Source: Herbihabitans rhizosphaerae
Lineage (GTDB): Bacteria > Actinomycetota > Actinomycetes > Mycobacteriales > Pseudonocardiaceae
Assembly (NCBI RefSeq): GCF_004216555.1
Contig: NZ_SGWQ01000013.1
Coordinates: forward strand, 62,001 to 126,000
DNA: 64,000 bases
Direction: 5' to 3'
This document shows, piece by piece, positions 6,647 to 59,341 of this stretch (its first letter is position 1; each line of letters starts with the position of its first letter). Under the pieces are notes generated by a model. That model was not told where the DNA came from. It saw nothing but the letters and a program-made list of their open reading frames with translations, and searched no databases. Both the position numbers and the translations under genes were made by a program.

Positions 6647-6730
6647 CCGGGCGCACGCCCACACCTCGAGAACCATCGCGCGTTCCGGCGCGCTTCGAAG
6701 CTGGAAAACCCTGGAATATCAAGGAGAATC

Positions 6731-29927: not shown

Positions 29928-29967
29928 TTGACACTCCAAAGTTAAGTCAGCAATCATTGAGTCAATG
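29928..29967 (+). promoter_or_regulatory. ars promoter with ArsR-type operator
   Basis: TTGACA at 29928-29933 is a consensus -35. The perfect palindrome CATTGA-G-TCAATG (29955-29967) overlaps the start codon at 29965, so a repressor bound there would block initiation. The mRNA leader must be very short. Confidence 0.55.
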
Positions 29968-32831: not shown

Positions 32832-32836
32832 GCCGC

Positions 32837-32929
32837 CACTATATCTACTCGAATCGATGGTTGTATTCATCGAGGCACGTCGATAGAGTCACCATGGATC
32901 GACCACAATCGATGAACAAGGAGCACGCG
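32837..32929. promoter_or_regulatory. Divergent arsN-fusion/arsM promoter region
   Basis: TCGATG and CATCGA (32855-32874) form an inverted repeat with an 8-base gap; several more ATCGA elements recur up to 32915. On the minus strand TATAGT (32838-32843) is a candidate -10. ArsR-domain autoregulation of both genes is inferred. Confidence 0.5.
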
Positions 32930-44611: not shown

Positions 44612-46141
44612 ATGGCTGATCAGAAGACTCGACGACGGGCGCGCGCCTGGCTCGCCGTCGGTGTCGTACTCGGCATCGGGGTGACCACGGCGGGGGCGAT
44701 CGGCGCCTCCGCGGAGTCGACGCCGAACGCCGTGCCGTCGATCGACTGGACCCCGTGTGGCGACGCGATCGAGTGCGCCACCGTCCAGGCCCCGCTGGAC
44801 TACACCCGCCCGTTCGGCGAAACGGTGTCGCTCAAGGTGACCCGCAGGAAGGCGACCGACCCGGCGCGTCGGATCGGCACGCTGTTCGTCAACCCCGGCG
44901 GTCCGGGCGGCTCGGCCTCCGGCCTGGTGAACGCCGTGGCCAAACGGGACACCACCGGTGAGACCGGTGCGCGGTTCGACATCATCGGCATGGACCCGCG
45001 CGGCGTCGGCGGCAGTACGCCCACTATCCGCTGCGTGGCCACGAACGACTACGCGGCACAGTGGGCCGAGGCCACCGCGGTGGCGGCGGACGGGCAGTTC
45101 AAGCGCGCCGTCTCGCAGGCGCGCTCCTACGACAAGGCGTGCGCGGACAACACCGGCCGGCTGCTGCCGCACCTCGGTACCGCCAATGTCGCCAGGGACA
45201 TGGACCTGGTGCGCGCGGCACTCGGCGAGGAGAAGATCTCCTACCTCGGCCTGTCCTACGGCACCTACATCGGCACGGTCTACGCCAACATGTTCCCGCA
45301 TCGGGTGCGTGCCGCGATGCTCGACGGCGGCTACGACCCGCGGCGCTACGCCAGCGACCCGTATCCCAACGACATGGTGCAGTACCACGCCGTCGAGAAG
45401 TCGCTGAACCGGTTCCTGGACTGGTGCGCCTCCGACGCGGCCAAGTGCGGGTTCGGCGCCGGCCGCCCCGCCGAGGCGTTCCGCGCGCTGCAGGCCGACC
45501 TCGACGCGAACCCGTTGCGGGATCCGTCCGGTGGCGTGATCGCCAACGGCGCGACCACGACCTTCGCCGTGGTCAGCTACGTCAACCGGGGCACCTCCGG
45601 CTGGGTCCCGCTCGGCGCGGCGCTGGCGAAGGCGCAGGCCAGGGACGGCAGCAGTGATCTGCTCGCGCCGATCGGCGACGGCGACACGAACTTCTACGCC
45701 GCCAACGTCGCGGTGGAGTGCAACGACCGCGTGTTCCCCGGCAGCCTCGCCGACGCCGAGGGCACACTGGCCGAGGAGGCGAAGGCCGGGCCGCTGCTCG
45801 GCAACACGATCGCCTACGGACCGCCGAACTACGACCACGGTCACGCGCTGGCGTGCCTGCAGTGGCCGGCCGAGCGCAAGAGCCGCTACGACGGGCGGTA
45901 CGACGCGCGCACCGAGACGCCGATCCTGGTGGTGGGCACGACGCACGACCCGGACACTCCGTACCAGGACTCGGTGGCCCTGTCGAAGTCGCTGGGCAAC
46001 GCGCGGCTGCTGACCTTCGACGGTGACGGGCACACCGGATTCGGGCGCAGCAAGTGCGCACTGAGCGCGGAGTTCACGTACCTGCTCGAGCTCAAACTGC
46101 CCGACGTCGAGGTCTGCAAGGACAATCCCCCGCCCGCCTGA
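44612..46141 (+). CDS. Secreted tripeptidyl-aminopeptidase-like hydrolase
   Basis: A 509-residue exported alpha/beta hydrolase. Signal peptide about 1-35 (ending ASAES), oxyanion NPGGPGGSASGL, nucleophile YLGLSYGTYIGT, acid in GTTHDPDTPYQ, His in DGDGHTGFGRSKCA. This matches the Streptomyces SlpD/tripeptidyl aminopeptidase family, which trims peptides from N-termini. Several Cys pairs suggest disulfides. GAGAGGAATC precedes the ATG at 44612. The carboxylesterase gene ends 73 bases upstream. Confidence 0.92.
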   Translation: MADQKTRRRARAWLAVGVVLGIGVTTAGAIGASAESTPNAVPSIDWTPCGDAIECATVQAPLDYTRPFGETVSLKVTRRKATDPARRIGTLFVNPGGPGGSASGLVNAVAKRDTTGETGARFDIIGMDPRGVGGSTPTIRCVATNDYAAQWAEATAVAADGQFKRAVSQARSYDKACADNTGRLLPHLGTANVARDMDLVRAALGEEKISYLGLSYGTYIGTVYANMFPHRVRAAMLDGGYDPRRYASDPYPNDMVQYHAVEKSLNRFLDWCASDAAKCGFGAGRPAEAFRALQADLDANPLRDPSGGVIANGATTTFAVVSYVNRGTSGWVPLGAALAKAQARDGSSDLLAPIGDGDTNFYAANVAVECNDRVFPGSLADAEGTLAEEAKAGPLLGNTIAYGPPNYDHGHALACLQWPAERKSRYDGRYDARTETPILVVGTTHDPDTPYQDSVALSKSLGNARLLTFDGDGHTGFGRSKCALSAEFTYLLELKLPDVEVCKDNPPPA

Positions 46142-46158
46142 CGATCAGCACCACGCCG

Positions 46159-46191
46159 CGGCGGGGAGCCCAGCCAAGGGCCTCCCCGCCG
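46159..46191. terminator. Bidirectional terminator between peptidase and importer genes
   Basis: A 10-bp stem, CGGCGGGGAG (46159-46168) with CTCCCCGCCG (46182-46191), fills the gap between two convergent genes. Confidence 0.7.
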
Positions 46192-47010
46192 TCACGTGTC
46201 CGCACTGACCGGCGGTGTGCCGATGCCGGAGTTCGTGCGTTTCCTGGCGCTGCGATAGGTGATGCGGATCGTTCCGGTGGTCGGTTCGTGATCGATGAGG
46301 GCGTCGACGTCGTACACGGTCCTCACCAGGTCCGGGGTGAGGACCACGGACGGTCGTCCCGCCGCGGCGACGCGTCCGTGGTCGAGAACCACGAGATGGT
46401 CGCAGTACTGGGCTGCGAGGTTGAGGTCGTGTAGTGCGATGACGCAGGTGACGCCGAGAGAACGCAGCAGTTCGAGCAAGTCGAGCTGGTGACGGATGTC
46501 GAGATGATTCGTGGGCTCGTCCAACAGAATCTCGCGTGGTTGCTGAGCCAGGGCGCGGGCCAGCTGGGCGCGTTGTTTCTCGCCGCCGGAGAGCGTGTGC
46601 CAGCTCCGGTGCTGTTTGTCCGCGACGTCGGCCTGTTCCAGCGCGGAGTCGATGATCTGCTCGTCGGCGTCGGTGAGTGCGTCGAATCGGCCGCGGAAAG
46701 GGGTACGGCCGAGTTCGACAACCTGGCGAACGGTGAGGGTGTCGCTGGTGGAGATGTCCTGTTCGACCACGGCGAGCCGCCGGGCGAGGGTGCGGCGGGC
46801 GAAGTCGCGCAGATCCGTGTCGTCGTAGTGGACGGTGCCGGCATCGGGTCGGCGCAACCCCGCCAGCAGTCGCAGCAGGGTGGTCTTGCCCGAACCGTTG
46901 GGGCCGAGCAGGCCGACGACCTGCCCGTCGTGGGCATCCAGGTCGACGCTGTCGAGCAGGCGGCTTTGTTTGACAGACCACGAGATCCCGACCGCCGCGA
47001 TGTGCCCCAT
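46192..47010 (-). CDS. Metal-chelate ABC importer ATPase (FecE type)
   Basis: A 272-residue ATPase. Walker A is LLGPNGSGKTTLLRLL, signature is LSGGEKQRAQLARAL, Walker B is EILLDEPTNHLDI, and the switch His is in ALHDLNLAAQYC. It powers the FecCD-type permease encoded just upstream; its ATG at 47008-47010 shares one base with the permease stop. It is the last gene of the metallophore operon. Confidence 0.93.
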   Translation of the reverse strand: MGHIAAVGISWSVKQSRLLDSVDLDAHDGQVVGLLGPNGSGKTTLLRLLAGLRRPDAGTVHYDDTDLRDFARRTLARRLAVVEQDISTSDTLTVRQVVELGRTPFRGRFDALTDADEQIIDSALEQADVADKQHRSWHTLSGGEKQRAQLARALAQQPREILLDEPTNHLDIRHQLDLLELLRSLGVTCVIALHDLNLAAQYCDHLVVLDHGRVAAAGRPSVVLTPDLVRTVYDVDALIDHEPTTGTIRITYRSARKRTNSGIGTPPVSADT

Positions 47011-48137
47011 CAGGAGTTCACTCGCCGCAGGACCAGTGCGAACGCGGGGGCGCCGAGGAGCGCGGTGATCACTCCCACGGGCAACTCGTTCGGCGCGAAG
47101 GCGGTACGAGCGAACGTGTCGATCCAGATGAGGAAGACGGCGCCGACGAGGGCGGTGACGGGAAGCAGGGTGCGGTGCATGGAGCCGGCCACGATGCGTA
47201 CCGCATGGGGAACGAGCAGGCCGATGAAGCCGATCGCACCGGATGCGGCCACGGCGGCGGCGGTGATCGCGGCGGTGAGGACCAGCAGCCAGACACGTGC
47301 GGCACGAACGTTGATGCCGAGCGCGGCCGCCGAGTCCCATCCGAACGTGAACGCGTCAAGCGCGGGGGCGAAGAACTGGATCGCGACGACGCCGACCAGG
47401 ATGAGCACGGCCGTGACCCCGACCAGCTGCCAGCGGGCCCCGGCGAGGGATCCGAGAAGCCAGTAGGTGAAACCGCGGGTGGAGTTCGCATCACCGTTGA
47501 TCATGAGGATGACCGAGGTGATCGCGGCGAAGAACTGGGAGACGAGCACGCCGGTGAGGACGACGCGTGCGGGGTTGGCGACGCGACCGCCGCCGATCAG
47601 CACGAGCAACACCCCGAAGGAGATCAGCGCGCCCGCGAACGCACCGGTCGACAGCGAGAGGCTGCCCCCGCCGATGCCCAGCAGGAGCACGGCGACGGCG
47701 CCGGTCGACGCGCCGGAGGACACGCCGAGCAGGTAAGGATCCGCCAACGGGTTCCGGGTGACCGACTGCAGGACGGCGCCCGCGACGGTCAGCGCCATTC
47801 CGACCGCGCCCGCCAGCAGGACACGCGGCACACGCGACTCCCAGATCAGGGCGTCCAGCAGCCTCGGCAACGGCTCGGTCGGGGCGATCGCACCCAATCC
47901 GACATGTCGCAGAATCGTGGAAATGACGTCGAGCGGGCCGATGTTCGCGGTTCCGAACAACGTCGCGGAAACGATCGTCACGAACAACGCGGCGGTGGCC
48001 AGAGCGCCAAGAGCCATCGGTGGAATACGCCAGGGCCGTCTCGCTCCCGATCCGAGACTCGCGGGCGGTCCCGCGGCCCGCTCGGTGGGCGGGATCTGTG
48101 CGGTCACGGCGCCGCTGGACCGCTCATTCGAGGTCAA
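47010..48137 (-). CDS. Metal-chelate ABC importer permease (FecCD type)
   Basis: A protein of about 375 residues with roughly ten membrane segments. The family motifs VPRVLLAGAVGMALTVAGAVLQ, NPLADPYLLGVSSGAS and FIGLLVPHAVRIVAG are visible. It carries siderophore-type chelates across the membrane with the downstream ATPase. The TTG at 48135-48137 overlaps the binding-protein stop (TTGA); GTG 48105-48107 is an alternative start. Confidence 0.92.
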   Translation of the reverse strand: MTSNERSSGAVTAQIPPTERAAGPPASLGSGARRPWRIPPMALGALATAALFVTIVSATLFGTANIGPLDVISTILRHVGLGAIAPTEPLPRLLDALIWESRVPRVLLAGAVGMALTVAGAVLQSVTRNPLADPYLLGVSSGASTGAVAVLLLGIGGGSLSLSTGAFAGALISFGVLLVLIGGGRVANPARVVLTGVLVSQFFAAITSVILMINGDANSTRGFTYWLLGSLAGARWQLVGVTAVLILVGVVAIQFFAPALDAFTFGWDSAAALGINVRAARVWLLVLTAAITAAAVAASGAIGFIGLLVPHAVRIVAGSMHRTLLPVTALVGAVFLIWIDTFARTAFAPNELPVGVITALLGAPAFALVLRRVNS

Positions 48138-49183
48138 CGAAGCCCTCGCTGAACGAGTTCGACGAGCCCTTTGGCGAGTGCGGGAACCGCGTAGGCGCTG
48201 CCATAGCTCGGATCCATGTAGCGCCCAGGAATAATGACGAACCGATCATTCGCCACGGCTTCGAGCTTGCTGGTGAGCGGATCTTTCTTGAGAAGGTCGA
48301 TTTTCTCCTTCGCCGTGTCACCAGGCTCTCCTCGGGTGAGATCGGCGATGACGATGACGTCCGGGTCACGGGCCGCGACGCTGTCCCAACTCACCTCGGG
48401 CCACTTTGTCGACGCGTCGTCGAAGACGTTCTTCACCCCGACCATCTCGGACACGTGCTGGGGCAACCCGCCGGTACCGGCGGCCCAGGGCTTACCGCCG
48501 AATGTGGAGTAAAACCACATCACGGTCAGCGGGTCCTTGGCCGCCTTGATTCCTTTCGCCGTCTCAAGGCCGCTGTTGATCACGGCCTGCTGCTCGGCGA
48601 TCAGCTTGTTGCCGGCGGCGGGAACGTCGAAAATCCTGGCCAGGTTGCGGTATTCGTCGAAGAGCAATTCGAACCGGGCACCTGCCACGGACTGGTGATA
48701 GACGCAGTCGAACTCGGTGAGATAGGTCGGGACGCCCAAGCCGTGCAGGACATCGCGCTCCCCGGACTGAGCCGGGGTGAAGAAGCTCGCGAAGGAAGCG
48801 TAGGCGAAATCGGGCTGCGCCTGCAACAGGGCCTCGTGCTTGATTTCCTGCCCGTGCGCGGAAAGTTTCGGGATCTTCTGGTACTCGCCGGCGATCTCGG
48901 GCGGAATCTGGTCTATCTCATACCCAGTCCCGACGATCCTGCCGCCCACCCCGAGATGGATGAGGATCTCCGCCGCGGCCTGGTTCATCGTCACCACTCG
49001 TCGAGGGGTGGCCCCGTAAGTCACCTTTTTGCCGCAGTTCTCCACTGTAAGCGGGTACTTCGTCACCCCCTCACCAGCCGATACCGGCCGCGCTCCGGCG
49101 TCGTTCGACGCGGCACCGCATCCAGCCAGGACCGCACCCACGGACAGCGCCGCGAGCACGGCGGCGATCTTGCGCAAGGTCAT
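48134..49183 (-). CDS. Metal-chelate binding lipoprotein 1 (FecB/BtuF type)
   Basis: A protein of about 349 residues with a lipoprotein signal (lipobox VLAGCGAA) and a type-III periplasmic-binding fold: YGATPRRVVTMNQAAAEILIHLGVGGRIVGTG, ARDPDVIVIADLTRGEPG. It captures a ferric or other metal chelate outside the membrane. ATG at 49181-49183 suits the GAGGGG site; an in-frame ATG lies two codons earlier. It is paralogous to the next gene. Confidence 0.9.
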   Translation of the reverse strand: MTLRKIAAVLAALSVGAVLAGCGAASNDAGARPVSAGEGVTKYPLTVENCGKKVTYGATPRRVVTMNQAAAEILIHLGVGGRIVGTGYEIDQIPPEIAGEYQKIPKLSAHGQEIKHEALLQAQPDFAYASFASFFTPAQSGERDVLHGLGVPTYLTEFDCVYHQSVAGARFELLFDEYRNLARIFDVPAAGNKLIAEQQAVINSGLETAKGIKAAKDPLTVMWFYSTFGGKPWAAGTGGLPQHVSEMVGVKNVFDDASTKWPEVSWDSVAARDPDVIVIADLTRGEPGDTAKEKIDLLKKDPLTSKLEAVANDRFVIIPGRYMDPSYGSAYAVPALAKGLVELVQRGLR

Positions 49184-49209
49184 GGCCATACCCCTCGATC
49201 TCGTCTAAC

Positions 49210-49228
49210 GAGAATGACAATCATTACT
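49210..49228 (-). promoter_or_regulatory. Fur-family box before binding-lipoprotein gene 1
   Basis: The segment has the perfect palindrome AATGA-CAA-TCATT (49213-49225) and matches 15 of 19 positions of the classical Fur consensus by eye. It differs from the IdeR/DmdR consensus. It suggests a second, metal-responsive promoter for the importer part of the operon. Fur or Zur cannot be told apart here. Confidence 0.55.
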
Positions 49229-49269
49229 ATCTTAGAGAGGGACGCAGCCGAGGCAAGGGGCAGGCGCGG

Positions 49270-50256
49270 TCAGCCCAGCCGCTGAAGACCGTCCTTGATC
49301 TCCCGGAGCGCGTTCACGCTGCCCACGGTGGGATCGAGTTCGAGCCCCGGCACCGTGATGAAGCGGTTCTCGCGGACGGCCGTCAGTTGCGATATCACGG
49401 GATGCTCGCGCAAGATCTCGATCTTCTGGGCCGCCTTGTCACCGCGGAGACCGCGATCGGGCAGGTCCGCCAGCACGATGACCGATGGATTGCGTGCGGC
49501 GATCTCCTCCCAACCGACCTCCGCCCAGTCTCCGCCGAGGTCCTCGAAAGCGTTGGGCGCCCGCAGAATTCGGCTCATGTCCTGGGGCATCCCGCTGTTG
49601 CCGGCCACATACGGCAGCCCGTCGTTGTACACCGAGTAGAGGTATACGACGCGCGGCTGGGTTCGCCGCGCCGCACTGGCGGACTGCGCGTCCGCGATGA
49701 CCTTCCGCTGTCGACGGGTCAGCTCCGCCGCACGGTCCGCGACGCCGAAGATCTTCCCGTAGTTGTCGTAATCGACGAGGAGCCGGTCGAACGGCGTGGT
49801 GTCGGGCAAGAATTGTGGGCAGTCCACCGCACTCGCGTACGACGCGACGCCCAACTCCGCCAGTTCCTGCCGAGTCCCCACACCGTCTCGGCTGAAGTCC
49901 GAGGTCACCGCGCTGGCCACGAAATCGGGATTCGCCGCGCGCAGTTGCTCGGCGGTGAGGTTCTTCGGGTTGAGCAGCCGGAGTCGTTCGTAGTCGGCCC
50001 GAAACTCCGGTGCGACCGGCCCTATCTGCAACGCGGTTCCCGCGATTCGATCTCGCAAACCGAGCGCCAGCAGGATCTCCGTGGTCTCCTGATCCGCGGC
50101 GACCGCGCGCGCCGGCGGGTGTTCGACACGAATACTCGTCCCGCAATTCTCGATGAGCACGCCGCCGCGCGCTTCCGCCTGATTGGTATCCACGCAGCCG
50201 GCCGTCGCGACGACCAGAGCGAGCACGGGCACCAGGGCGAAACCGCGACGGGACAC
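49270..50256 (-). CDS. Metal-chelate binding lipoprotein 2 (FecB/BtuF type)
   Basis: A protein of about 328 residues with a lipobox VATAGCVD and the same fold as lipoprotein 1: IENCGTSIRVEHPPARAVAADQETTEILLALGLRDRIAGTA and IAARNPSVIVLADLPDRG. The two share an IENC/VENC start and overall layout but are clearly divergent. GGGGAG precedes the GTG at 50254-50256. It follows the aminotransferase gene by 16 bases. Confidence 0.9.
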   Translation of the reverse strand: MSRRGFALVPVLALVVATAGCVDTNQAEARGGVLIENCGTSIRVEHPPARAVAADQETTEILLALGLRDRIAGTALQIGPVAPEFRADYERLRLLNPKNLTAEQLRAANPDFVASAVTSDFSRDGVGTRQELAELGVASYASAVDCPQFLPDTTPFDRLLVDYDNYGKIFGVADRAAELTRRQRKVIADAQSASAARRTQPRVVYLYSVYNDGLPYVAGNSGMPQDMSRILRAPNAFEDLGGDWAEVGWEEIAARNPSVIVLADLPDRGLRGDKAAQKIEILREHPVISQLTAVRENRFITVPGLELDPTVGSVNALREIKDGLQRLG

Positions 50257-50272
50257 TGCGACTCCCCTTTGG

Positions 50273-51439
50273 CTAGGCGATCGACCGTGAAAACGCTTCG
50301 AGTCGCCGCGCGAGATCATCCACGGCATCCCGGTCGCAATTGCCGACGCTCACCCGGATCATGTTGTGGTCGCACGGCAGGAACGCGGTTCCCGGCATGA
50401 CGATGGCGTCGAATCGAATCGCCAGCTCGCGGACGACCTGCGCGGTCGGCCGGTCGGCGAAAGGGTGCCGAATCCACGCGAAGAAGCCACCACAGGACAG
50501 CGCCTCGAATCCGCCCGGCCGCTGGGCCATGACCTGCCTGAACCAGGATCGGCGCGACGCGATGTCCCGAGATCTCTCGATCCGCCATTCCCGTGCGTGG
50601 CGCAACCCCGCCAACACCGCTTCCTGACCTATTCGCGGAGCGCACACGGCGACACAATCGAGCAGCTTCGCGATCTCCTGGTTGAGCTCCGGCGAACCGA
50701 CGACCGCCCCCACCCGATAACCGGGCAACGCCAGCTCCTTGGAGAACGAATGCAGACTAACCACCGTGTCGAGCCATCCCGGCTCACGGAAGAGCCGGTG
50801 GGCCGGATCATCGACGTCCCGAAAGGACCGGTACGTCTCGTCCAGCACGAGTGCGATTCCCCGTTTCCTCGCGGCCATGGCGAACAGCCGGATCTCCTCG
50901 GGCGGCACCGTGATTCCCGTGGGATTGCCCGGCGTCACCAGGACGACGGCCCTGGTCCGATCGGTGACCAGCGCCTCGATCGCCTCCGCACGCGGCACCA
51001 GGTTTTCGTCGGGCTCCAGGTACACCGGGGTGATTCCGTTGAGCTTGAGCCACATGTCGTGGTTGAAGTAGTACGGCAACGGCACGATGACCTCGCTCCC
51101 CGGCTCGGCCAACGCGCTGATCGTCAGACAGAAAGCCTGGTTGCATCCCGCCGTGATGACGACATTGTCAGGGGTGACCGCTCCGCCGTAGTCGCGATTG
51201 ATCTCGGCGGCGTAGGCCGCCCGCAGCGACGGCATACCCGGCACCTCGGTGTACGCACTCCCCTCCGTACTCCGTGCCGTGCGAACGATGTGCTCGCGCA
51301 CCACGGGCGCGGGCGGATACGACGGTGCCGCCTGAGCGAGATCGAGTTGGGCTCTTCGGGGTCGGTGACCCCGAAGAGCCGCATACACCGCCGTAATGGG
51401 CGAGCCCTCGACCTCGAGCGTGTGTGAACGGAATCGCAA
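50273..51439 (-). CDS. Class I/II PLP aminotransferase of the metallophore operon
   Basis: A 388-residue fold-I aminotransferase with the cofactor Lys in SLHSFSKELALPGYRVGA (about residue 234), TPGNPTGIT and LVLDETYRSF. Aspartate-aminotransferase-type substrates are expected. By position beside the MppP-like gene it could reaminate a 2-keto arginine derivative, as MppQ does in enduracididine formation; this is inference. A TTG at 51437-51439 with GAGGAG upstream is the likely start. Confidence 0.85.
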   Translation of the reverse strand: MRFRSHTLEVEGSPITAVYAALRGHRPRRAQLDLAQAAPSYPPAPVVREHIVRTARSTEGSAYTEVPGMPSLRAAYAAEINRDYGGAVTPDNVVITAGCNQAFCLTISALAEPGSEVIVPLPYYFNHDMWLKLNGITPVYLEPDENLVPRAEAIEALVTDRTRAVVLVTPGNPTGITVPPEEIRLFAMAARKRGIALVLDETYRSFRDVDDPAHRLFREPGWLDTVVSLHSFSKELALPGYRVGAVVGSPELNQEIAKLLDCVAVCAPRIGQEAVLAGLRHAREWRIERSRDIASRRSWFRQVMAQRPGGFEALSCGGFFAWIRHPFADRPTAQVVRELAIRFDAIVMPGTAFLPCDHNMIRVSVGNCDRDAVDDLARRLEAFSRSIA

Positions 51440-51482
51440 CGGTCTTTCCGCTCCTCACTCGATGGACCGGCGAGCCGGACGG

Positions 51483-52601
51483 CTACGCCAATTCTGCGAA
51501 AGTACTGGCCAGCGTGCGAGCCGCGGCCTCGACCGCGTCGGACGGCCGGGCGAGCGACACCCGAATCAATCGCAGGCCCTCCTCCGGATTCGCCCAGTGG
51601 AACGGTGGGCACGGGAGCACGTGCACTCCCCTGCCGACCATCTCTCGATACAACTTCGCCGAGTCCGGGCCGCCCGCCGGGAGCTGAATACGCGCGACAC
51701 TGATCTCCGACTTCGGGTCGGCCAATTCGAGGCCGACCCTGCCGATCTCGTCGGAGACGATTCGCCGATTCCGTTCGACGAGCGCGCGAGCGCTCTCGAA
51801 TCCGCCAGCCGCCCAGTCTCGCGCGAGTTCTCGCACCAGCAGCAGAACGGCCGGCGACGCCGACAACAGCGACTCGGCGAAAGCCGCTTCGATCGCCGCC
51901 GCGTGCCTCTCGGAGAACACGAGCATGCCGATCTTCATCTCGTGCATCGGCCACAACTTGCCGGTGTCCTCGAAGGTGATCCAATCGACCCCGGCGGCGT
52001 CGAGGATCGCGTACGTGTCGTACTGCGCCGATCGCACCTGCCCGCGGAACGCCGCGTCGACGATCACGGTCTGTCCCGCACGGGCGGCGTGTTCGGCCAG
52101 TGAGCGGAGATGATCCGGCGGCGTGACCAGGCCGGTCGGATTGTTCGGATGGGTAATCGCGATGACGTCGACCGCCGACGGCCACCGCTGCTCCATCAGG
52201 TCGGCCTCGGACAGCGCCGTCAACGACAGCCCGCGGGTCCGGAACAGATCCGCGATGTTGTCGAACGTCGGATGCAGCAGCGCGACCTTCGTACCGACCG
52301 GCAGTGCCCTGGCGACGATGTCCGTTGCCAGCGTCGACGAGTAACAGCTCAGGATCCGCCCGGTGCCGACCGGCGCCGTGTGCTGGCCGATCGTGTCGAA
52401 GAAAACACGATGAGCCTCGGTCTCGATGTCCGCGAACCGGCGCCGGGACGCTTCGTGGAATAAGGTCGGGAATTGCTCGATGACCTCCGCCTGCTCATTG
52501 CTCAGCGCGAGCCGCGCATGGCCATCGGTGAGGTTGAGGCCGCCATTGATATCGGTGAGAGCGGCAACCTCCATCTTCGTAAGGTTGTCAATTTTCATCA
52601 T
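51483..52601 (-). CDS. MppP-like PLP-dependent L-arginine oxidase/hydroxylase
   Basis: A 372-residue fold-I PLP enzyme that matches the enduracididine enzyme MppP (oxygen-dependent hydroxylation of arginine) rather than ordinary aminotransferases. Shared stretches are LTDGHARLALS, RILSCYSSTLATDI, LLHPTFDNIADL, FEDTGKLWP with the cofactor Lys 215, and LPCPPFHWANPEEG. The N-terminal catalytic set recalled for MppP (Thr, Glu, Asp, His) is present as T8, E11, D26 and H28. ATG at 52599-52601. It may yield 4-hydroxy- or dehydro-arginine products; substrate is inferred. Confidence 0.85.
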   Translation of the reverse strand: MMKIDNLTKMEVAALTDINGGLNLTDGHARLALSNEQAEVIEQFPTLFHEASRRRFADIETEAHRVFFDTIGQHTAPVGTGRILSCYSSTLATDIVARALPVGTKVALLHPTFDNIADLFRTRGLSLTALSEADLMEQRWPSAVDVIAITHPNNPTGLVTPPDHLRSLAEHAARAGQTVIVDAAFRGQVRSAQYDTYAILDAAGVDWITFEDTGKLWPMHEMKIGMLVFSERHAAAIEAAFAESLLSASPAVLLLVRELARDWAAGGFESARALVERNRRIVSDEIGRVGLELADPKSEISVARIQLPAGGPDSAKLYREMVGRGVHVLPCPPFHWANPEEGLRLIRVSLARPSDAVEAAARTLASTFAELA

Positions 52602-52688
52602 GCTGACACACTTCCACTTCAATAGCAGAAATTGATATGCCGAACCGGCAATCGCACCGCCCTTACCCCCCGACTGCAGAATTCCCGG

Positions 52689-53699
52689 TCAGTTCTGTCG
52701 ATCTTTCTTGCCCAGCATGGACGCCAACTTCTCCACCACGTCCGTGCTGTGCAGTCCGGTGGACGTCATCCAGTCGTCGTCGAAGACCGTGTCCAGATAC
52801 TTCTCGCCGCCGTCGCAGACCAGGACGACGATGTTGGTCGAGGGATCCACCGACTGTGCCTGTTCGAGCGCCTTGTAGATCACACCGCCGGCCGAGCCGC
52901 CCACGAGAATCCCGTAGTTGCGTGCCAGGTAGCGACACGTCTCGAATGCCTCCGAGTCGCTGACCTTGATGCCCTCGTCGATCAGGTCGTAGTCGACCAG
53001 ATCGCCGATTTCCGATCCCTCCGGTGACCCCGTCCCGGACTGGTAGTACGGCGCGCCGACCCCTCCGAACGCGATGGACCCGACCGGCTCGACACCGATG
53101 ATCTTGAGATCCGGAATGCGTTTCCGAAGAGCGCGCCCGGCCCCGCACAGGGAGCCTCCGGTGCCCACCGCGCCGTAGAGAAAATGGAGATCGTCGTCGA
53201 GCGCCTGGTGCAGTTCCTCGGCGAGCGCCAGGTAGCCGTTCGGATTCCCGGGATTGGCATGCTGCTCGGTCCAGTAGGCGCCGTGCTCGATGGCGAGCTT
53301 CTCGGCGGTGGCATCGCGTTCCGCGGTGACCAGGGCCTCGTCCTCGCCGCCGACGTTGATCAGCTCCGCTCCGTACGCCCGCATCGCACGCAGCTTGTCC
53401 ATACTCGAATGATTGTCCACGACCGCGCTGAACCGATATCCACGTTCGGCCGCGATGACCGCGAGGCCGAGGCCGGTATTGCCGGACGTCGATTCGACGA
53501 GCCACCCTCCGGCCTTGAGGAGCCCCGACTCCTCCGCCTCGTCCACCATCTGGCGGGCCATGCGGATTTTCGCGGTCCCGGTGGGGTTGAACTGCTCGAG
53601 CTTCAATATGACATTGCCAGCTCCCTCGATGCCGTCCAATCTGAGCATTGGCGTGCTGCCGATCAGTTCAGAAATCTTGTTCTTTATCACGGCCCCCAT
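52689..53699 (-). CDS. SbnA-family 2,3-diaminopropionate precursor synthase
   Basis: A protein of about 336 residues in the cysteine-synthase fold. PLP Lys is in NPTGTAKIRMARQ (Lys 44), the substrate loop is ESTSGNTGLGLAV, and the phosphate loop is GAVGTGGSLCGAGRAL. Long similarity to SbnA/VioB/CmnB proteins, which join O-phosphoserine and glutamate on the way to L-2,3-diaminopropionate, and an SbnB-like gene in the same operon support the call. The TAKIR in place of the usual S-x-K-D-R is notable. ATG 53697-53699; GTG 53688-53690 is possible. Confidence 0.85.
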   Translation of the reverse strand: MGAVIKNKISELIGSTPMLRLDGIEGAGNVILKLEQFNPTGTAKIRMARQMVDEAEESGLLKAGGWLVESTSGNTGLGLAVIAAERGYRFSAVVDNHSSMDKLRAMRAYGAELINVGGEDEALVTAERDATAEKLAIEHGAYWTEQHANPGNPNGYLALAEELHQALDDDLHFLYGAVGTGGSLCGAGRALRKRIPDLKIIGVEPVGSIAFGGVGAPYYQSGTGSPEGSEIGDLVDYDLIDEGIKVSDSEAFETCRYLARNYGILVGGSAGGVIYKALEQAQSVDPSTNIVVLVCDGGEKYLDTVFDDDWMTSTGLHSTDVVEKLASMLGKKDRQN

Positions 53700-53745
53700 C
53701 TCCCCTGGATACATGTGGTGCCCGCCCCTGAGCCCGCATCCCCTG

Positions 53746-54945
53746 TCAGGGATACGTCGACGGCCGATCGCCGTTGGACCGGCCGAGTGCACAGATTTCG
53801 AGCAGTCTGCGCACGAAGACATCGTTCTCCTCCGGCAAGGAAAGCGACGCCCGAATAAAGCCCTCGTAGCCCGGCTCTCGCCATGGTTTGACGATGATTC
53901 CCGATCGGAGCAACTGCTCGGCCACGACGACAGCGGATTGTTCCGTGTCGATGAACAGAAAATTGGATGCCGACGGCGCGACCCGGAAGCCGGCGGCGCG
54001 GAGTGCTTTCGTGATTCTCGTGCGCTCCAGTCCGGTCCGCCGGACGGTTTCGGCCAGATGCGCCTGATCGTCCAGTGCCGCGACGGCGGCGTCCTGAGCG
54101 ACCTGATTGACGTTGTACGGAGTACGCACCCGGTTGAGCGCGTCGACCAATCTCGCGTCGGACGCGATGCCGTATCCCACCCGAAGTCCGGCGAGGCCGT
54201 ACGCTTTCGAGAACGTTCTCAGCACGATCCACGGACGGCTCAGCCCGCGCAGCACCTCGAGGCCGTCGGGATACGACGGATTCGACATCGCGTATTCGTG
54301 GTACGCGTCGTCCAGGACCACCAACGCCGTCTCCGGCGTCGCGTCCAGAATGGTGTCCAACTGCTCCCGGTCGAGAATCACCCCGGTCGGGTTGGACGGA
54401 CTCGCGATGAAGACGATCTTCGGATCTGCCGCCAACGCCCGCAGCCACCCGGCGGTGTCGAAGCCGAAATCAGCGGTGAACGGAACCTTGTCGACGCGCG
54501 CCCCCATCATGCGCGGAAATATCTCGTGCAGGCTGAAACACGGCGCCTGAATGGTCACGATGTCGCCGGCGCCGAGGAGCGCCGGACTGAGCAGCTCGAG
54601 AATGTTCTCCGAGCCGTTCCCGAGGATGACGTGCTCGGTCGACACCGCCAGCTTGTCGCCGATCGCCTCGGCAAGACGTTTGCCCATGGGGTCCGGATAC
54701 CGCGCGACGCCCGCCGCCAGTCGCCGCCGCACGGCTTCCACGACTCCCGCCGAGACGCCGTAAGGGCTCTCGTTGTTGGAGAGCTTGATGATGCGTGTCG
54801 GGCCGTAGCTGCGCGACACCTCGTCGGGGTCGGCACCGGGGTCGTAGGCCGGGAGACCGGCGACCTCGGGCCGAACCAGTGATTCCATCGCGGAAGGATG
54901 CTCTCCGGCTCTTTCCGCCTGCCCCTCGATCTGCACCTGTCTCAT
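53746..54945 (-). CDS. HisC-like PLP aminotransferase
   Basis: A 399-residue aminotransferase of the histidinol-phosphate type: IIKLSNNESPYGVS, ILGNGSENILELL, SPSNPTGVILDREQLD, VVLDDAYHEY, RTFSKAYGLAGLRVGYG (Lys 247). It is unlikely to serve histidine synthesis in this context and may transaminate an intermediate of the operon product. The ATG at 54943-54945 overlaps the MATE stop (ATGA). Confidence 0.88.
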   Translation of the reverse strand: MRQVQIEGQAERAGEHPSAMESLVRPEVAGLPAYDPGADPDEVSRSYGPTRIIKLSNNESPYGVSAGVVEAVRRRLAAGVARYPDPMGKRLAEAIGDKLAVSTEHVILGNGSENILELLSPALLGAGDIVTIQAPCFSLHEIFPRMMGARVDKVPFTADFGFDTAGWLRALAADPKIVFIASPSNPTGVILDREQLDTILDATPETALVVLDDAYHEYAMSNPSYPDGLEVLRGLSRPWIVLRTFSKAYGLAGLRVGYGIASDARLVDALNRVRTPYNVNQVAQDAAVAALDDQAHLAETVRRTGLERTRITKALRAAGFRVAPSASNFLFIDTEQSAVVVAEQLLRSGIIVKPWREPGYEGFIRASLSLPEENDVFVRRLLEICALGRSNGDRPSTYP

Positions 54946-56354
54946 GATTTGCTCGATTCCAGCGCGACGGTGTCCGAAGCCTTCTGCTTCAAACGGTTGA
55001 CGCGTACCAGGAATGCGACGACGAGCATTCCCGCCGTGGTGGCAAGCCCGATGGTCTGCCCCACCCAAACCCCTTGAACACCCTGCCCCGCCGCCACTCC
55101 GAGCAGGTAACTGACCGGCAATCCCACGAGCCAGTAACCGACGAGCGAGATTCGAAACGGCCCGACGGCGTCTCCGACACCGCGGAGGATGCCGTTTCCG
55201 ATGTTCTGGCTGGCATCGAATACCTGCAGCACGGTCGCGATCAGCAGACCTGAGGCGGTCAAGGCCAGAATGGCCGCGTTGCCCTCGTGGTCGGCGGAAA
55301 GGAACAGCGACACGATGGCATCCGGCACCACCAGGTAGGGAATGGCGACAACCAGCATCGCCAGCACGCCGAGCGCCAGACCCAGGATGCCCAGCCGCCG
55401 TGCCTTCACGTAGTCGCCGACGCCGTGCGCCTCGCTGATGTGCACGGACGCGGCGTGCGAGAATCCCGCGGAGATCATGAACACGATGTAGATGATCTGG
55501 TTGAGCAGGGTCTGCGCCGCGAGAGCTTCCGTTCCCAGTGTTCCGATCAGCAGCGTCAGGACGCTGAAGAACCCGGCCTCGGAGGCGTACGTTCCCGATA
55601 TCGGTAGGCCGAGTTTCCACACCGACTTCACGGCGTCCCCCGACCAGCGAAGTTCCGATCGGGAAAGGTAGGGGCTGAAACTCCGATTCTTGACGATCAC
55701 GAGCAGGAACATCAGGAACGAGAGGGTGAACACGGTGGTGGTCGCGATCGCCACGCCGACGAAACCGAACGCGGGGAGCCCGAGCTTGCCGTAGATCAGC
55801 ACGTAGTTCAGGCCGATCGTCGCGGCGATCGATACCAGCGTGATGGCCAGCAGCGGACCGGGACGCTTGAGGCCGGTGGTGAAGTGCCGCAATGTCTGGA
55901 ACCACAGGCAAGGCACCATCCCGGGAGCCAATACCGTGAGGAACTGGCCGCTCTTCTCCACCACCTCGGGCTCCTGCCCCAGCCACAGGAGAACCGGACC
56001 GATCAGCAGCAGCACCACGGCGAAAACGATTCCGCTGACCGTCGCCCAGAAGAATCCGGCGACCAACAGATCACGAATACGCTGGACGTCGTTTCGGACG
56101 TGCGCCTCGGCCACCAGATTGCTCACGCCGGTGACCAGCCCCGTGCCCATCGTGCGCAACTGGTTGAACAGGACGATGGCGAGACCCGCTGCGGCGATCT
56201 CGGTGGCACCGAGCCGGCCGAGCATCACGATGTCCACGGTGGTGAGCGCGACGTGGGCGAAGTTGGTCAGAATCAGCGGAAAGGCGAGCGCGAGAAGAGA
56301 CCTCGAATTGACGATCCACCAACCGGCCGTCGTGCCGCCACTCGACTTGATCAC
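54942..56354 (-). CDS. MATE-family efflux transporter
   Basis: A 470-residue protein with about twelve membrane helices. MATE features are LTTVDIVMLGRLGATEIAAAGLA in helices 1-2, QTLRHFTTGLKRPGPLLAI, and in the second half SASVHI-like FSHAASVHISEAHGVGDYVKARR. MATE proteins exchange cations or small organic molecules for Na+ or H+. Inside a biosynthetic operon it is the likely exporter of the product. GTG at 56352-56354 overlaps the upstream stop (GTGA). Confidence 0.92.
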   Translation of the reverse strand: MIKSSGGTTAGWWIVNSRSLLALAFPLILTNFAHVALTTVDIVMLGRLGATEIAAAGLAIVLFNQLRTMGTGLVTGVSNLVAEAHVRNDVQRIRDLLVAGFFWATVSGIVFAVVLLLIGPVLLWLGQEPEVVEKSGQFLTVLAPGMVPCLWFQTLRHFTTGLKRPGPLLAITLVSIAATIGLNYVLIYGKLGLPAFGFVGVAIATTTVFTLSFLMFLLVIVKNRSFSPYLSRSELRWSGDAVKSVWKLGLPISGTYASEAGFFSVLTLLIGTLGTEALAAQTLLNQIIYIVFMISAGFSHAASVHISEAHGVGDYVKARRLGILGLALGVLAMLVVAIPYLVVPDAIVSLFLSADHEGNAAILALTASGLLIATVLQVFDASQNIGNGILRGVGDAVGPFRISLVGYWLVGLPVSYLLGVAAGQGVQGVWVGQTIGLATTAGMLVVAFLVRVNRLKQKASDTVALESSKS

Positions 56355-57349
56355 CAGAACCGTACCCTCGATCCACGTCCGGCCGTGAGCGCCAGATCCG
56401 CCACATATCGCCCGAGTGCCGCGTCCGTGACCGCCATTCCGCTGTTGTAGGCGAAAACGACGTCCGTGGCGTCCTTTCTGGCCGGGGTGTGCCCCAAAAG
56501 GATGTCCGGCAACTCCGCGTCGACCGGCGGCAGACTGCCGTCCTCGGCGCGCAGGTCGTCGCAGGTGGCGCGCATTTGTTCGGCGTCGGTCGCGATTCGG
56601 TATTCGGACCCGTGGAGCACATCCGCGTGCACGCCATAGCCGAGCAGGACGGCGATCGCACCCGGCTTCATCCAGTCGCGTCGCACCTCCTGCTTCGCGG
56701 ACAGGCCGGACACGCCGAGCACGATGTCCGCTTCCGCGGCGGCCTTGGGCACGTCGTCGACGAATTCGACATCGCGATCAGGATGGCTGTCCGTGACGCT
56801 CTTTCGGACGGCTCGCAACCCCTCCTCGTAGGTTCCGTAGACCCTCAGCCGCTCCAGATTGGGCAAGGCCGCCAGCAGCATCGGCAGCGCCATCTGCCCC
56901 TGGACTCCGGTGCCCATGACCAACGCGCTCCGCGCGTCCGGACACACCGCGCGCGCCATGAGCGCCGACGTGGCAGAGGATCGGAGCGGCCCCAGCTTGA
57001 CGACGTCCATCAACGCGATCGGCCTGCCGGTGGTGTCGTCGCAGAGAAAGATGAACGAGTGGAAGCCGTAGCTGTCACGGGTGCGCTGCGGATCGAACTC
57101 GTAGACGGCCTTGAAGCAGACGGTGTCGCTGTCTCCGTCCAGGGCGACCATCGAGTAGCTGAGTGACCGCTCGTCCGCACCCTCGACGATGGTCTTGACG
57201 GGGTTTCTCGAGCCGCCGTTTCGCACCGCCTTGTACGCCTGCTCGACGATCTTGAGCACCTGCGGGTAGCTGATTTCCAGATCCTCGAGCTCGGACTGGG
57301 GCAACAGCCACAGCTCTCCTGGCGACGCATAGCCTGCCGGCTGATTCAT
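56351..57349 (-). CDS. SbnB-like ornithine-cyclodeaminase-family dehydrogenase
   Basis: A protein of about 332 residues of the OCD/mu-crystallin family with a Rossmann motif ALVMGTGVQGQMALPMLLA, GPLRSSATSALMAR and CFKAVYEFDPQRTR. SbnB and VioK relatives oxidatively split N-(1-amino-1-carboxy-2-ethyl)glutamate to release diaminopropionate. Pairing with the SbnA-like gene four genes downstream in the operon supports that role. ATG 57347-57349 is chosen for length; ATGs at 57361 and 57403 extend it and the latter overlaps the decarboxylase gene. Confidence 0.85.
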   Translation of the reverse strand: MNQPAGYASPGELWLLPQSELEDLEISYPQVLKIVEQAYKAVRNGGSRNPVKTIVEGADERSLSYSMVALDGDSDTVCFKAVYEFDPQRTRDSYGFHSFIFLCDDTTGRPIALMDVVKLGPLRSSATSALMARAVCPDARSALVMGTGVQGQMALPMLLAALPNLERLRVYGTYEEGLRAVRKSVTDSHPDRDVEFVDDVPKAAAEADIVLGVSGLSAKQEVRRDWMKPGAIAVLLGYGVHADVLHGSEYRIATDAEQMRATCDDLRAEDGSLPPVDAELPDILLGHTPARKDATDVVFAYNSGMAVTDAALGRYVADLALTAGRGSRVRFW

Positions 57350-57381
57350 GCTGTCCAACATCTCCTTCGGTCGGTGCTGGC

Positions 57382-58764
57382 TCAAATACCGTCCAGACGC
57401 CATTTCGGCTGATTCCCTTCTTCACCGAGCCGCACGACCACCTTCTGCGGTATCGGCATCTCGTGGAAGGGCGACTCGTTGGAATCCATCTGATATCCGG
57501 CGGTGTTCAGGTAGACGAGCTGATCGCCGGGCTCGACGACCCGAGGAAATCCGATCTTGCGCCACGTCAGCATGTCGCTTTCCAGGCACGTCGATCCCGC
57601 GACACTGGCGTGGAATTCGCGGTTGCCCACCGGCTCGGACGCGATCAGTACCGGATCCGGCAGGTACTCGCTGTTGAACCACTGCTCGGACAGGCTGAAA
57701 CTACTGCCGTGGACCGTGACGATGGCGTATCCGTCACTTTCCCGCCGGTCGTCCACCTGCTGCACGCCAAATATGGTGAAACCCGCCTGGTCCAGCAATG
57801 CCCGGCCGGGCTCGACAAGAAATCCGATGTCATTCCGAGACGCCTTGCTCATGAGCGTTTCATCGGCATCCACGGGATGTTTCATGATGTCCCGCAGGGC
57901 CAGATCCGCGGGCCGTTCCGTACCGTATGGATAGAACCCGTCGAACGATTTGCCCATGTGGTAATGATCCGGAGCGTCTTGCCGCAGGAAGCCGTCCCAG
58001 GTCGCCGGGTCGACGTATCGCAGCGGCAGGCCGCCGCCGATGTCGACAAGCCGGCAGTGCGCCAGGCCCCGTGCCCGCGCCACGACGCAATGCTCGATCA
58101 TCTCGTTCGCCGCGTGCGCGCGTTCCTGGGTGGAGTATCCAGTGAGGTGGAAGGAGAACCCTTCCAGGCGAACGGATTCGGGTGCGTCAGCGCACAGCGA
58201 GACGGCCTCGTTCCGCTCGGCGGCGGCCATTCCGAATCGGCTCCGACTCTGTGCGTCCACGCGGCAGCGCAGCAGCACTCGGGCAGGCTTTCGCATGCCG
58301 CGCGCCGATTCGCTCAACCGTCGCAGCTCGGACAGGGAGTCGATCGCCACCAGGCATCCGTGTTGAAGTGCGACCGAGTGAAGTGCCGAGTCCTTCTCCG
58401 GACCGGAGATACCGATTCGCTCCCCCGGGATCCCACCAGCGAGCGCCTTGGCCAACTCCGGTGCGCTCGCGACGTCGATTCCTATGCCGAGCCGAGCGGA
58501 CGACCTGACGAAGCAATCCGCCTTGTTCGCCTTCTTCGCGAAGAGTATTCCGGCGTCGATGCCGAGCTCGGCGACCGTGCCCCGCATGCGCCTGACATTC
58601 TCTTCGAAGATCTCCGGCAGCAGTACGTGCAGCGGTGAGCCAAGACCGTTGGCCAAATCGGCCAGCAGATCCGCCTGCTTGCTCAGCAGGTGCGAAACGC
58701 CGGGATGCCGAAGAGCCGTCAAAGGAAATGGCTTCGTCGAAGCGCCGCCCTGGTCAAACATCAT
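57382..58764 (-). CDS. Fold-III PLP decarboxylase-like protein (Y4yA-like)
   Basis: A 460-residue alanine-racemase-fold PLP protein of the DapDC/ornithine decarboxylase superfamily. The cofactor Lys is in LFAKKANKADCFV (Lys 78), with GISGPEKDSALHS, SFHLTGYS, VDIGGGLPLRYVD, VEPGRALLDQ and CLESDML downstream. The pattern is closest, from memory, to the Y4yA-like branch rather than LysA. It probably decarboxylates an amino acid or intermediate. GGAAGGG precedes ATG-ATG at 58759-58764. First gene of the operon. Confidence 0.82.
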   Translation of the reverse strand: MMFDQGGASTKPFPLTALRHPGVSHLLSKQADLLADLANGLGSPLHVLLPEIFEENVRRMRGTVAELGIDAGILFAKKANKADCFVRSSARLGIGIDVASAPELAKALAGGIPGERIGISGPEKDSALHSVALQHGCLVAIDSLSELRRLSESARGMRKPARVLLRCRVDAQSRSRFGMAAAERNEAVSLCADAPESVRLEGFSFHLTGYSTQERAHAANEMIEHCVVARARGLAHCRLVDIGGGLPLRYVDPATWDGFLRQDAPDHYHMGKSFDGFYPYGTERPADLALRDIMKHPVDADETLMSKASRNDIGFLVEPGRALLDQAGFTIFGVQQVDDRRESDGYAIVTVHGSSFSLSEQWFNSEYLPDPVLIASEPVGNREFHASVAGSTCLESDMLTWRKIGFPRVVEPGDQLVYLNTAGYQMDSNESPFHEMPIPQKVVVRLGEEGNQPKWRLDGI

Positions 58765-59341
58765 GAGCACCCTTCCCGACTGGTGAATAGATGCCATTCA
58801 ACGACAGCCAGCCGCACCTGGCCAAAGATGGTTCTCATCAATTCGCTGCGCCCCAGCAGCAGCTACCCCAGAAGTGCGGCCCAAGTGCCCCAGTAGTGCG
58901 CCACACTCAACCTAGCAACGTTGTTACAACGAGATTAGCCCGACTTTTCAAGGCTGTCAAAATATATCTGAAATATATCTGAATGCACATATCGCCACGT
59001 CGCAATATGTTTACCTTAATTGATCTTCATATTGGTTATACACGTGACAGGCAATATGAGCAATCAATTCGGCATATGGCCTACGCCGGCCGGACACCGC
59101 TCGACGCTCCACGGTGGCGCTTGTCCGCCAGGTTCGGAAGCCGCCCTGGCCTCGACCACCCGGAACCAACGCCTCCGCACGCCGTCGAGGACGAAGAATC
59201 TGTTTCAGATCCCCCACCCTGACGTAAGGGTTGCCGTCGAATCCCGCCGTGCGGGATTAATTGCGACTTTCGTCGCTGTCAACGGTCGCGTTCGGATGCT
59301 TGGCTCACGGGGTCATTTCCACTCGATTGAAGGGAGCTACC
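58765..59341. other. Gene-free divergent regulatory region, AT-rich core
   Basis: No gene is supported here. The part 58930-59070 is far richer in A and T than the rest of the window and contains the operon promoter, an operator-like palindrome and an 11-bp direct repeat. The part 59070-59341 is the leader of the trypsin gene, with no clear promoter recognised. Confidence 0.6.
58919..58982 (-). promoter_or_regulatory. Promoter and operators of the metallophore operon
   Basis: On the minus strand: TTGACA (58955-58960), a 17-base spacer and TAATCT (58932-58937), close to the ideal housekeeping promoter. Directly downstream, over the expected start point, is the perfect palindrome CGTTGT-T-ACAACG (58919-58931). 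Directly upstream of the -35 are two exact 11-bp repeats, TCAGATATATT (58961-58971 and 58972-58982), one helical turn apart. These suit a repressor and an activator or UP element respectively. Confidence 0.75.

Follow-up and report, generated by a model that had tools for sequence, protein, structure and literature searches.

What could be made by an operon that joins a metal importer to amino acid enzymes of a kind known from antibiotic pathways? The question is raised by a stretch of 64,000 nucleotides from Herbihabitans rhizosphaerae (contig NZ_SGWQ01000013.1, positions 62,001 to 126,000), here called the window. A first-pass annotation, made from the letters alone, had proposed that eleven of its genes serve a small, exported and re-imported metal chelator of a new type, built from an arginine-derived amino acid without a non-ribosomal peptide synthetase (NRPS) or a synthetase for NRPS-independent siderophores (NIS). 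Such a chelator and the arginine-derived building block were both supported, but the type is not new, as the core enzymes are those of the known aminopolycarboxylic acid metallophores EDDS (ethylenediamine-disuccinate) and EDHA (ethylenediaminesuccinic acid hydroxyarginine). The annotation was right on the likely function and wrong on the novelty of kind: this is a real, conserved metallophore operon. Its probable product is a new side-chain variant of the EDDS/EDHA type of aminopolycarboxylic acid metallophore, and that the product is a chelator of this class can be held with greater confidence still.

Gene content and class of the operon

Eleven consecutive minus-strand genes occupy positions 46192-58797 with mostly overlapping or closely spaced ends, as annotated. 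Overlaps are of 4 nt between the SbnB-like and MATE genes, the MATE and HisC-like genes, and the first binding lipoprotein and the permease, of 1 nt between permease and ATPase, and of 22 nt between the decarboxylase and SbnB-like genes with the first SbnB start; the remaining gaps span about 16-114 nt depending on the starts. Domains were assigned with Pfam on ten proteins and with NCBIfam on all eleven, and the two agreed on the protein classes, bearing out the enzymes and transporters named earlier (Table 1). The domains listed for the eleven proteins (ten by Pfam, the ATPase by NCBIfam) included none of the NRPS, IucA/IucC, or ATP-grasp families, as had been annotated, and neither an IucA/IucC synthetase nor a citrate synthase-like gene was found among them (Pfam, NCBIfam). 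An antibiotic NRPS next door, which had been named as evidence against a chelator, was absent: the largest called gene in the window encodes 978 amino acids, so that no NRPS-sized gene is present there.

Aminopolycarboxylic acid metallophores are included as a cluster type in antiSMASH 7 (PMC10320115), and a passage of PMC13206832 gives one such cluster as a cysteine synthase, a diaminopimelate decarboxylase, and an ornithine cyclodeaminase. The EDHA operon comprises the four genes AesA-D and is iron-responsive (part of PMC10702961), EDDS is neither an NRPS nor an NIS product according to a section of PMC4993170, and a MATE gene is recorded in a Nocardia aminopolycarboxylate cluster (PMC10920908). 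The hallmark trio of a cysteine synthase-like enzyme, a diaminopimelate-type decarboxylase, and an ornithine cyclodeaminase-like enzyme is present in the operon, and a MATE exporter lies within the core, the equation of AesD with MATE following from gene order. By sequence, the window core belongs to the aminopolycarboxylic acid metallophore (EDDS/EDHA) class. Its proteins are relatives of SbnA, SbnB, MppP, and GntC, as the NCBIfam cut-offs for all four were missed.

When contigs from 84,980 species were scanned, the SbnB-like protein as query returned 41 loci (44-75% identity), and homologues of the decarboxylase, SbnB, and SbnA were present in 41/41; the gene set is found again in other genomes, which excludes a chance juxtaposition. 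A HisC-like gene occurred in 34 of the 41 (19 actinobacterial and 15 Gram-negative), usually in the order decarboxylase-SbnB-MATE-HisC-SbnA as in the window, and these are called HisC-type loci. In the remaining seven, among them Trinickia, Burkholderia, and Rugamonas, a TauD-family gene was present, in the order TauD-SbnB-decarboxylase-SbnA-MATE. Decarboxylase searches matched 8 of 396 phylum genomes at 1e-25 and 19 of 297 family genomes at 1e-30, the window's own included each time, and gave further TauD-bearing loci. Two TauD proteins scored below the NCBIfam cut-offs, in Burkholderia sp. OK233 (L097; GntD 325 and VioC 285 bits) and in the actinobacterial L105 (GntD 252 and VioC 216 bits). 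A third layout, SbnB-decarboxylase-SbnA-MATE, was found in the window's family at L138-L150 (13 loci) and L133-L137, some of the latter with importer-like genes nearby. The window's own type was recognized among the 297 family genomes, besides the window, only in G106, with a partial match in G283 (L151) that is unplaced. The TauD loci were taken as EDHA-type and the bare four-gene loci as EDDS-type by layout; a VioC-like protein in the TauD loci fits the hydroxyarginine of EDHA, and the bare loci fit EDDS. No HisC-like gene was found within the fetched stretches of EDDS-like and TauD-bearing loci.

The HisC-type loci formed one clade with support 1.0, spanning Actinobacteria and Proteobacteria and separate from the EDDS-like and TauD-bearing loci, in a midpoint-rooted tree of the three concatenated core proteins from 64 loci (L088, L092, and L151 left out, a core gene being uncalled). 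Its 34 leaves comprise 32 of the 34 scan loci together with the window and with L132, which duplicates L080. L080 and L132 are apparently the same genome, and each of the pairs L066/L069 and L065/L101 comes from a single species, so that the counts call for some caution. Twenty actinobacterial leaves grouped within the clade (support 1.0), with the window as first branch, and the position of the clade among Gram-negative TauD loci suggests that the actinobacterial form was derived from Proteobacteria. A ligase-free make-up held for the cassette conserved across the two phyla, the remaining flanking genes of the relatives being unscanned for ligases; an ATP-grasp gene does stand beyond ABC exporters in 3/34 HisC-type relatives (L067, L076, and L077, all Micromonosporaceae; Pfam on L067).

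Transport genes accompany the core in both phyla. A TonB-receptor family member was identified in 13 of 15 Gram-negative HisC-type loci and in 7/7 TauD loci of the scan (Pfam on one). Among the 19 actinobacterial HisC-type loci, 16 have a FecCD permease, and two of the remaining three end with the contig after the binding protein. Homologous clusters keep an importer, whose consistent lack had been proposed as counter-evidence. The MATE gene is absent from 5/34 HisC-type relatives, where a pair of neighboring ABC transporter genes is found instead in every case (Pfam on one), followed by the ATP-grasp gene in L067, L076, and L077; this substitution supports an export role. The Amycolatopsis oliviviridis locus (L070, 4594-8475) has a second permease (51%), a partial ATPase, and a further binding protein with 64% identity to lipoprotein 2 of the window; the additional lipoprotein in the window may be what is left of a second importer like this one.

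Table 1. Promoter candidate and genes of the operon in order of transcription (window positions)
Feature	Position	Strand	Evidence
Candidate promoter TTGACA-N17-TAATCT	58932..58960	-	Read by eye; missed by scan; second hexamer 3/6 bases vs TATAAT
Fold-III PLP (pyridoxal phosphate) decarboxylase (AesB/SbnH-like role), first gene	57382..58797	-	Pfam PF02784 Orn_Arg_deC_N 77.5 bits; homologue in 41/41 retrieved loci
SbnB/ornithine-cyclodeaminase-like imine reductase (AesA-like)	56351..57403	-	PF02423 OCD_Mu_crystall 94 bits; NCBIfam SbnB 78.6 bits, cut-off 326.9 missed
MATE exporter (AesD-like)	54942..56354	-	PF01554 MatE 154 bits
HisC-like aminotransferase, sub-clade marker	53746..54945	-	PF00155 Aminotran_1_2 203 bits; NCBIfam hisC 299 bits
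SbnA/cysteine-synthase-like beta-replacement enzyme (AesC-like)	52689..53714, start perhaps 53699	-	PF00291 PALP 221 bits; NCBIfam SbnA 244.7 bits, cut-off 349.95 missed
MppP-like PLP arginine oxidase/hydroxylase	51483..52601	-	Aminotran_1_2 59 bits; NCBIfam MppP (TIGR04462 equivalog) 235 bits, cut-off 450 missed
PRK07550-type aminotransferase, MppP partner	50273..51439	-	Aminotran_1_2 157 bits; NF005732 461 bits, above cut-off 366
Substrate-binding lipoprotein 2	49270..50256	-	PF01497 Peripla_BP_2 92.5 bits
Substrate-binding lipoprotein 1	48134..49189	-	PF01497 Peripla_BP_2 91.4 bits; homologues in HisC-type actinobacterial relatives
FecCD-type permease	47010..48137	-	PF01032 281 bits
FecE-type ATPase, last gene	46192..47010	-	NCBIfam F420-0 315, EitC 285, FecE 233 bits; all below cut-offs

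Beyond the 3' end of the operon, a glutamine synthetase (460 bits) is encoded on the plus strand at 40661-42085. ArsR-like regulators (by eye), a MIP channel (80 bits), and an ArsM-looking methyltransferase at 29965-33682 form a possible arsenic gene group.

Regulatory boxes in the relatives and in the window

EDDS is strictly Zur-regulated according to passages of PMC4993170 and PMC6103462, and the Nocardia aminopolycarboxylate cluster is reported to be under DmdR1 control (PMC10920908). The Gram-negative promoter test covered 13 of the 15 HisC-type loci (L090 and L092 were left out, their receptor being uncalled), and L133-L137 and L106 lie outside the counts of the published-motif and shuffle-tested box searches. 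Zur sites fitting the published Pseudomonas motif were located upstream of the TonB-receptor gene in 11 of these 13 (0.13 expected from shuffles), and the E. coli Zur motif with at most two mismatches likewise gave 11/13 (0.0 expected). No site was found in L078, where the receptor start is apparently miscalled, and the receptor of L095 is not directly upstream of the cassette. Upstream of the decarboxylase, Zur sites were identified in 13 of 19 actinobacterial HisC-type loci (S. coelicolor motif, one mismatch; 0.0 expected), so that published Zur motifs were present in 24/32 HisC-type relatives overall, compared with 1/11 TauD-bearing and 4/13 EDDS-like loci. At least 12 of the 15 bases of a Zur consensus palindrome were matched in 14 of the 19 actinobacterial loci, compared with 11 of the 172 other promoters in these loci, and among the Gram-negative HisC-type loci Zur fitted 12/13 and Fur 2/13. 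For the control groups, consensus strings tested against shuffles gave significant IdeR boxes in 4/4 actinobacterial TauD (EDHA-type) loci and Zur-type boxes in 6/13 EDDS-like loci, in incomplete agreement with the literature, where EDHA is under iron control and EDDS under zinc control. Judged by these motifs, regulation in the HisC-type clade points to zinc, and zinc is marginally favored as the main metal of the operon's chelator.

Neither the strong promoter nor the Fur-like box of the first-pass annotation was confirmed in the window. A scan of 46050-59300 for sigma-70-type promoters returned no sites, and the candidate in Table 1 deviates at half of its second hexamer. Within 300 bp upstream, the best Zur, Fur, and IdeR matches (the last at 11/19) were equalled by 46, 27, and 51 of 100 dinucleotide shuffles, respectively, and published Zur motifs gave no significant site upstream of the operon. 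A first Zur count over 11 informative positions had reached 8 at the best window site, equalled by 75 of 185 control promoters. Targets could not be named from the whole genome, where the Zur motif with one mismatch has as many as 121 matches per strand (18 for its reversed control). A clear Zur-type box is present at L063 from Streptomyces sp. ST2-7A, the only other MppP-bearing HisC-type locus.

Side-chain enzymes and the proposed pathway

The HisC-like enzyme exceeds the NCBIfam hisC cut-off of 276.6 bits, and its best match is PRK05166 (458 bits, below the cut-off of 540). Residue Lys353 of the window protein is conserved in 34/34 aligned clade sequences and is followed by W-R-E-P-G-Y, with each position conserved in 33 or more of the 34. 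At residue 353 the two solved relatives shown carry Arg, which in true HisC presumably binds the substrate phosphate. One guess is that the substrate is histidine, giving imidazolepyruvate, apt for a zinc ligand.

The MppP-like protein aligned with MppP of S. wadayamensis (5dj1) at 294 bits. His29 and Asp218 of that enzyme were singled out in PMC6411801, where the catalytic lysine is printed as 211 and the alignment gives 221. Equivalents of His29, Asp218, and Lys221 are present in the window protein and in 20 other aligned homologues (L038 and L051, with no called gene, left out). The closest relatives are in L063 (82%), G292 (65%), and L033 (48-50%), with sixteen more loci at 39-44%, and the PRK07550-type aminotransferase is 69% identical to the partner in L063 and 61% to that in L152. 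Of the gene set that the first-pass annotation proposed to look for in other genomes, the core recurred; the pair of MppP and aminotransferase was found in only 2/35 HisC-type loci, the window and L063. Since the two are not sister leaves, the pair was either gained twice or lost repeatedly.

No MppR was identified in the operon, and PF06314 (ADC) gave 0 matches in the whole genome (98.57% complete). The aminotransferase scored 245 bits with the GntC model, below the cut-off of 415, and MppQ was not among its best 25 of 78 NCBIfam families. The cyclases GntC, VioD, and OrfR carry E9, S25, and S26 near the N-terminus (PMC10367076); compared by reading, the window protein lacks these residues and has LDLAQAAP in that region, and the VioD equivalog of L033 (491 bits) has all three. 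With neither MppR nor a VioD/GntC-type cyclase beside MppP, an acyclic gamma-hydroxyarginine arm is predicted from sequence as the simplest product of MppP and the PRK07550-type aminotransferase. Enduracididine or capreomycidine was considered and is less likely, given the missing MppR and E9/S25/S26 cyclase. MppP products are 4-hydroxy-2-oxoarginine and 2-oxoarginine in PMC6411801; PMC7497351 gives 2-ketoarginine with a dehydro compound and additionally names a hydroxylated ketoacid.

MppP homologues also stand in other settings. L034, one of the sixteen loci at 39-44%, contains an MppQ-like protein (488 bits, cut-off 540), an MppR-like ADC protein (184 bits), and an NRPS. In L152 (G292 contig C318, 7105 bases), a VioC equivalog scoring 525 bits lies beside MppP and the aminotransferase, as does a weak AMP-binding_C end (21.7 bits vs a cut-off of 24.5); this is a third setting of the pair, probably an NRPS cluster. 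L033 (G026 C1:9320600-9340599, at 5852-10580) has MppP (50%), the VioD equivalog, a TauD gene, and another aminotransferase-like gene; MppR was unrecognized among its listed neighbors, only some of which were scanned.

From these enzymes a route can be proposed that would need no ATP-dependent ligase in its assembly steps. The SbnA-like enzyme would couple an amino acid, through its amino group, to an activated serine (for SbnA, O-phosphoserine), the fold-III decarboxylase would remove the serine-derived carboxyl to leave an ethylenediamine unit, and the SbnB-like reductase would couple the free amine with a 2-oxo acid by reductive amination, giving a two-arm ethylenediamine chelator. These three steps are presumed from the enzyme families and from the structures of EDDS and EDHA. 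The HisC-like aminotransferase would supply or convert one arm, as a 2-oxo acid such as imidazolepyruvate or as an amino acid. MppP would convert arginine to 4-hydroxy-2-oxoarginine and the PRK07550-type aminotransferase would turn this into a gamma-hydroxyarginine arm, in parallel with EDHA, whose hydroxyarginine is expected from the VioC-like oxygenase of EDHA-type clusters. The MATE protein would export the chelator, and the two lipoproteins with FecCD/FecE would return the metal complex. That the arginine-derived arm is indeed built into the chelator has a slight balance of probability in its favor.

More tentatively, at a little under even confidence, the HisC-type loci could be a third, unrecognized aminopolycarboxylate branch of Zur-controlled zincophores in Proteobacteria and Actinobacteria, in which a swappable side-chain module (none, a VioC-type oxygenase, a HisC-like aminotransferase, or MppP with its aminotransferase) would set arm and metal, and of which the window would be a two-module, ligase-free gamma-hydroxyarginine chelator. 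No description of the HisC-type branch was found in the open-licence PMC literature among the top 15-20 matches of each search, and few bacterial zincophores are known according to part of PMC10563805. If true, a ligase-free route to zinc chelators would be common to two phyla, product and metal would be predictable from sequence through the side-chain gene next to a constant core, and an arginine oxidase of antibiotic clusters would enter metal acquisition. Of the results, the wider HisC-type, Zur-linked branch is the more interesting one.

Alternative explanations and known systems

Several observations weigh against a new zinc-linked variant of the EDDS/EDHA kind. The NCBIfam cut-offs for SbnA, SbnB, MppP, and GntC were missed, the EDDS and EDHA types are represented by loci assigned from their layout, the pair of MppP and aminotransferase may be optional in HisC-type loci, and PMC6411801 and PMC7497351 disagree over the second MppP product. 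A significant Fur box was found in 1/7 Gram-negative TauD loci, at a site that also scores as Zur, and 7/13 EDDS-like loci as well as L133-L137 have no Zur-type site; given such sparse sites, the controls are incomplete. In 14 of the 19 actinobacterial HisC-type loci the boxes also match a Fur 19-mer consensus, so that Zur is told from Fur there by the published S. coelicolor motif and by the Gram-negative members; the Streptomyces boxes are nearly identical and hence not independent. Finally, no Zur, Fur, or IdeR box reaches significance in the window promoter, so that zinc control of the window copy rests on the relatives, including L063.

The operon might make EDDS or EDHA itself, with the aminotransferases and MppP only in tuning or supply. 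The core enzymes and exporter are the same as in the EDDS-like and EDHA-type loci, and hydroxyarginine would be a building block in common with EDHA; this is nevertheless unlikely given the separate, well-supported HisC clade and core and MATE proteins 38-55% identical to the EDDS-like loci of the family and 42-64% to the TauD-bearing ones. The HisC-like gene is present in 34/34 HisC-type relatives against none found in the fetched EDDS-like and TauD stretches. MppP targets the gamma carbon and VioC the beta carbon, and the operon has no VioC-type oxygenase, the genome's only match to that model being alone on another contig. This match is a TauD gene (L181; G000 C2:458000-477999, at 9324-10319; 202 bits, cut-off 418.6) near proteasome accessory-looking genes (by eye), with no recognizable cluster. 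Slightly less probable again is an amino acid supply module providing diaminopropionate and gamma-hydroxyarginine or enduracididine to a ligase elsewhere, which the first-pass annotation had also offered. The genome does contain 13 NRPS condensation-domain matches (contigs C1, C2, C3, and C15) and two IucA/IucC (PF04183) matches (contig C3 only), and in G292 the pair (65% and 61%) accompanies a VioC equivalog and a weak AMP-binding_C end. However, all of the genome's matches are off the window's contig, export and import are provided for within the operon, the cassette is conserved across two phyla without a ligase (ATP-grasp beside it in 3/34 relatives, other flanks unscanned), and neither MppR nor a VioD/GntC-type cyclase is at hand for a cyclic arginine. 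The two IucA/IucC matches adjoin a decarboxylase-like gene by eye (L182; G000 C3:166000-185999), which makes the locus another siderophore candidate in this genome.

An exported antimetabolite or antibiotic amino acid, with the importer taking up something else, would suit the membership of MppP-like enzymes in antibiotic pathways, as in L034 with its MppQ, MppR, and NRPS, yet is improbable beside the Zur-type motifs across the clade and the TonB receptors (13/15 Gram-negative) and FecCD permeases (16/19 actinobacterial) of the relatives. The SbnA-, SbnB-, and SbnH-like enzymes, exporter, and FecBCD-type importer recall a staphyloferrin B-like NIS siderophore operon, but the absence of an IucA/IucC or citrate synthase-like gene among the eleven and the missed SbnA and SbnB cut-offs leave this hardly credible; it is contradicted by gene content unless the synthetases on C3 act in trans, and the type was rejected for want of an NIS synthetase in the operon.

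Set beside known systems, the operon shares features with several. The enduracididine (MppP/MppQ/MppR) NRPS modules share an MppP-like enzyme with equivalents of His29, Asp218, and Lys221, whereas the window has no MppR and no NRPS and its aminotransferase is PRK07550-type. That aminotransferase is related to the cyclases GntC of guanitoxin and VioD of viomycin, but below the cut-off and without E9/S25/S26. Staphyloferrin B (sbn) has SbnA, SbnB, a fold-III decarboxylase, an exporter, and a FecBCD-type importer in common with the window, which differs in that its eleven genes include neither NIS synthetases nor a citrate synthase. EDDS of Amycolatopsis japonicum was represented by its look-alikes L138-L150, from which the EDDS type is deduced; these share the SbnB-like enzyme, decarboxylase, SbnA-like enzyme, and MATE exporter with the window, at 38-51% identity. 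Their order is SbnB-decarboxylase-SbnA-MATE, and no HisC-like, MppP-like, or PRK07550-type gene was recognized in them, so that the window differs by another gene order and three further PLP enzymes. The EDHA-type loci carry a VioC/GntD-type TauD gene and IdeR boxes (four actinobacterial), in contrast to the MppP with aminotransferase, HisC-like gene, and lack of an IdeR box in the window; no VioC-type arginine oxygenase was found among the eleven (Pfam, NCBIfam), this feature of EDHA being itself deduced from EDHA-type loci. With EDHA of Streptomyces scabiei, also predicted in Burkholderia, the window shares the same core, and a hydroxyarginine arm is the predicted common feature (parts of PMC8914351 and PMC10702961).

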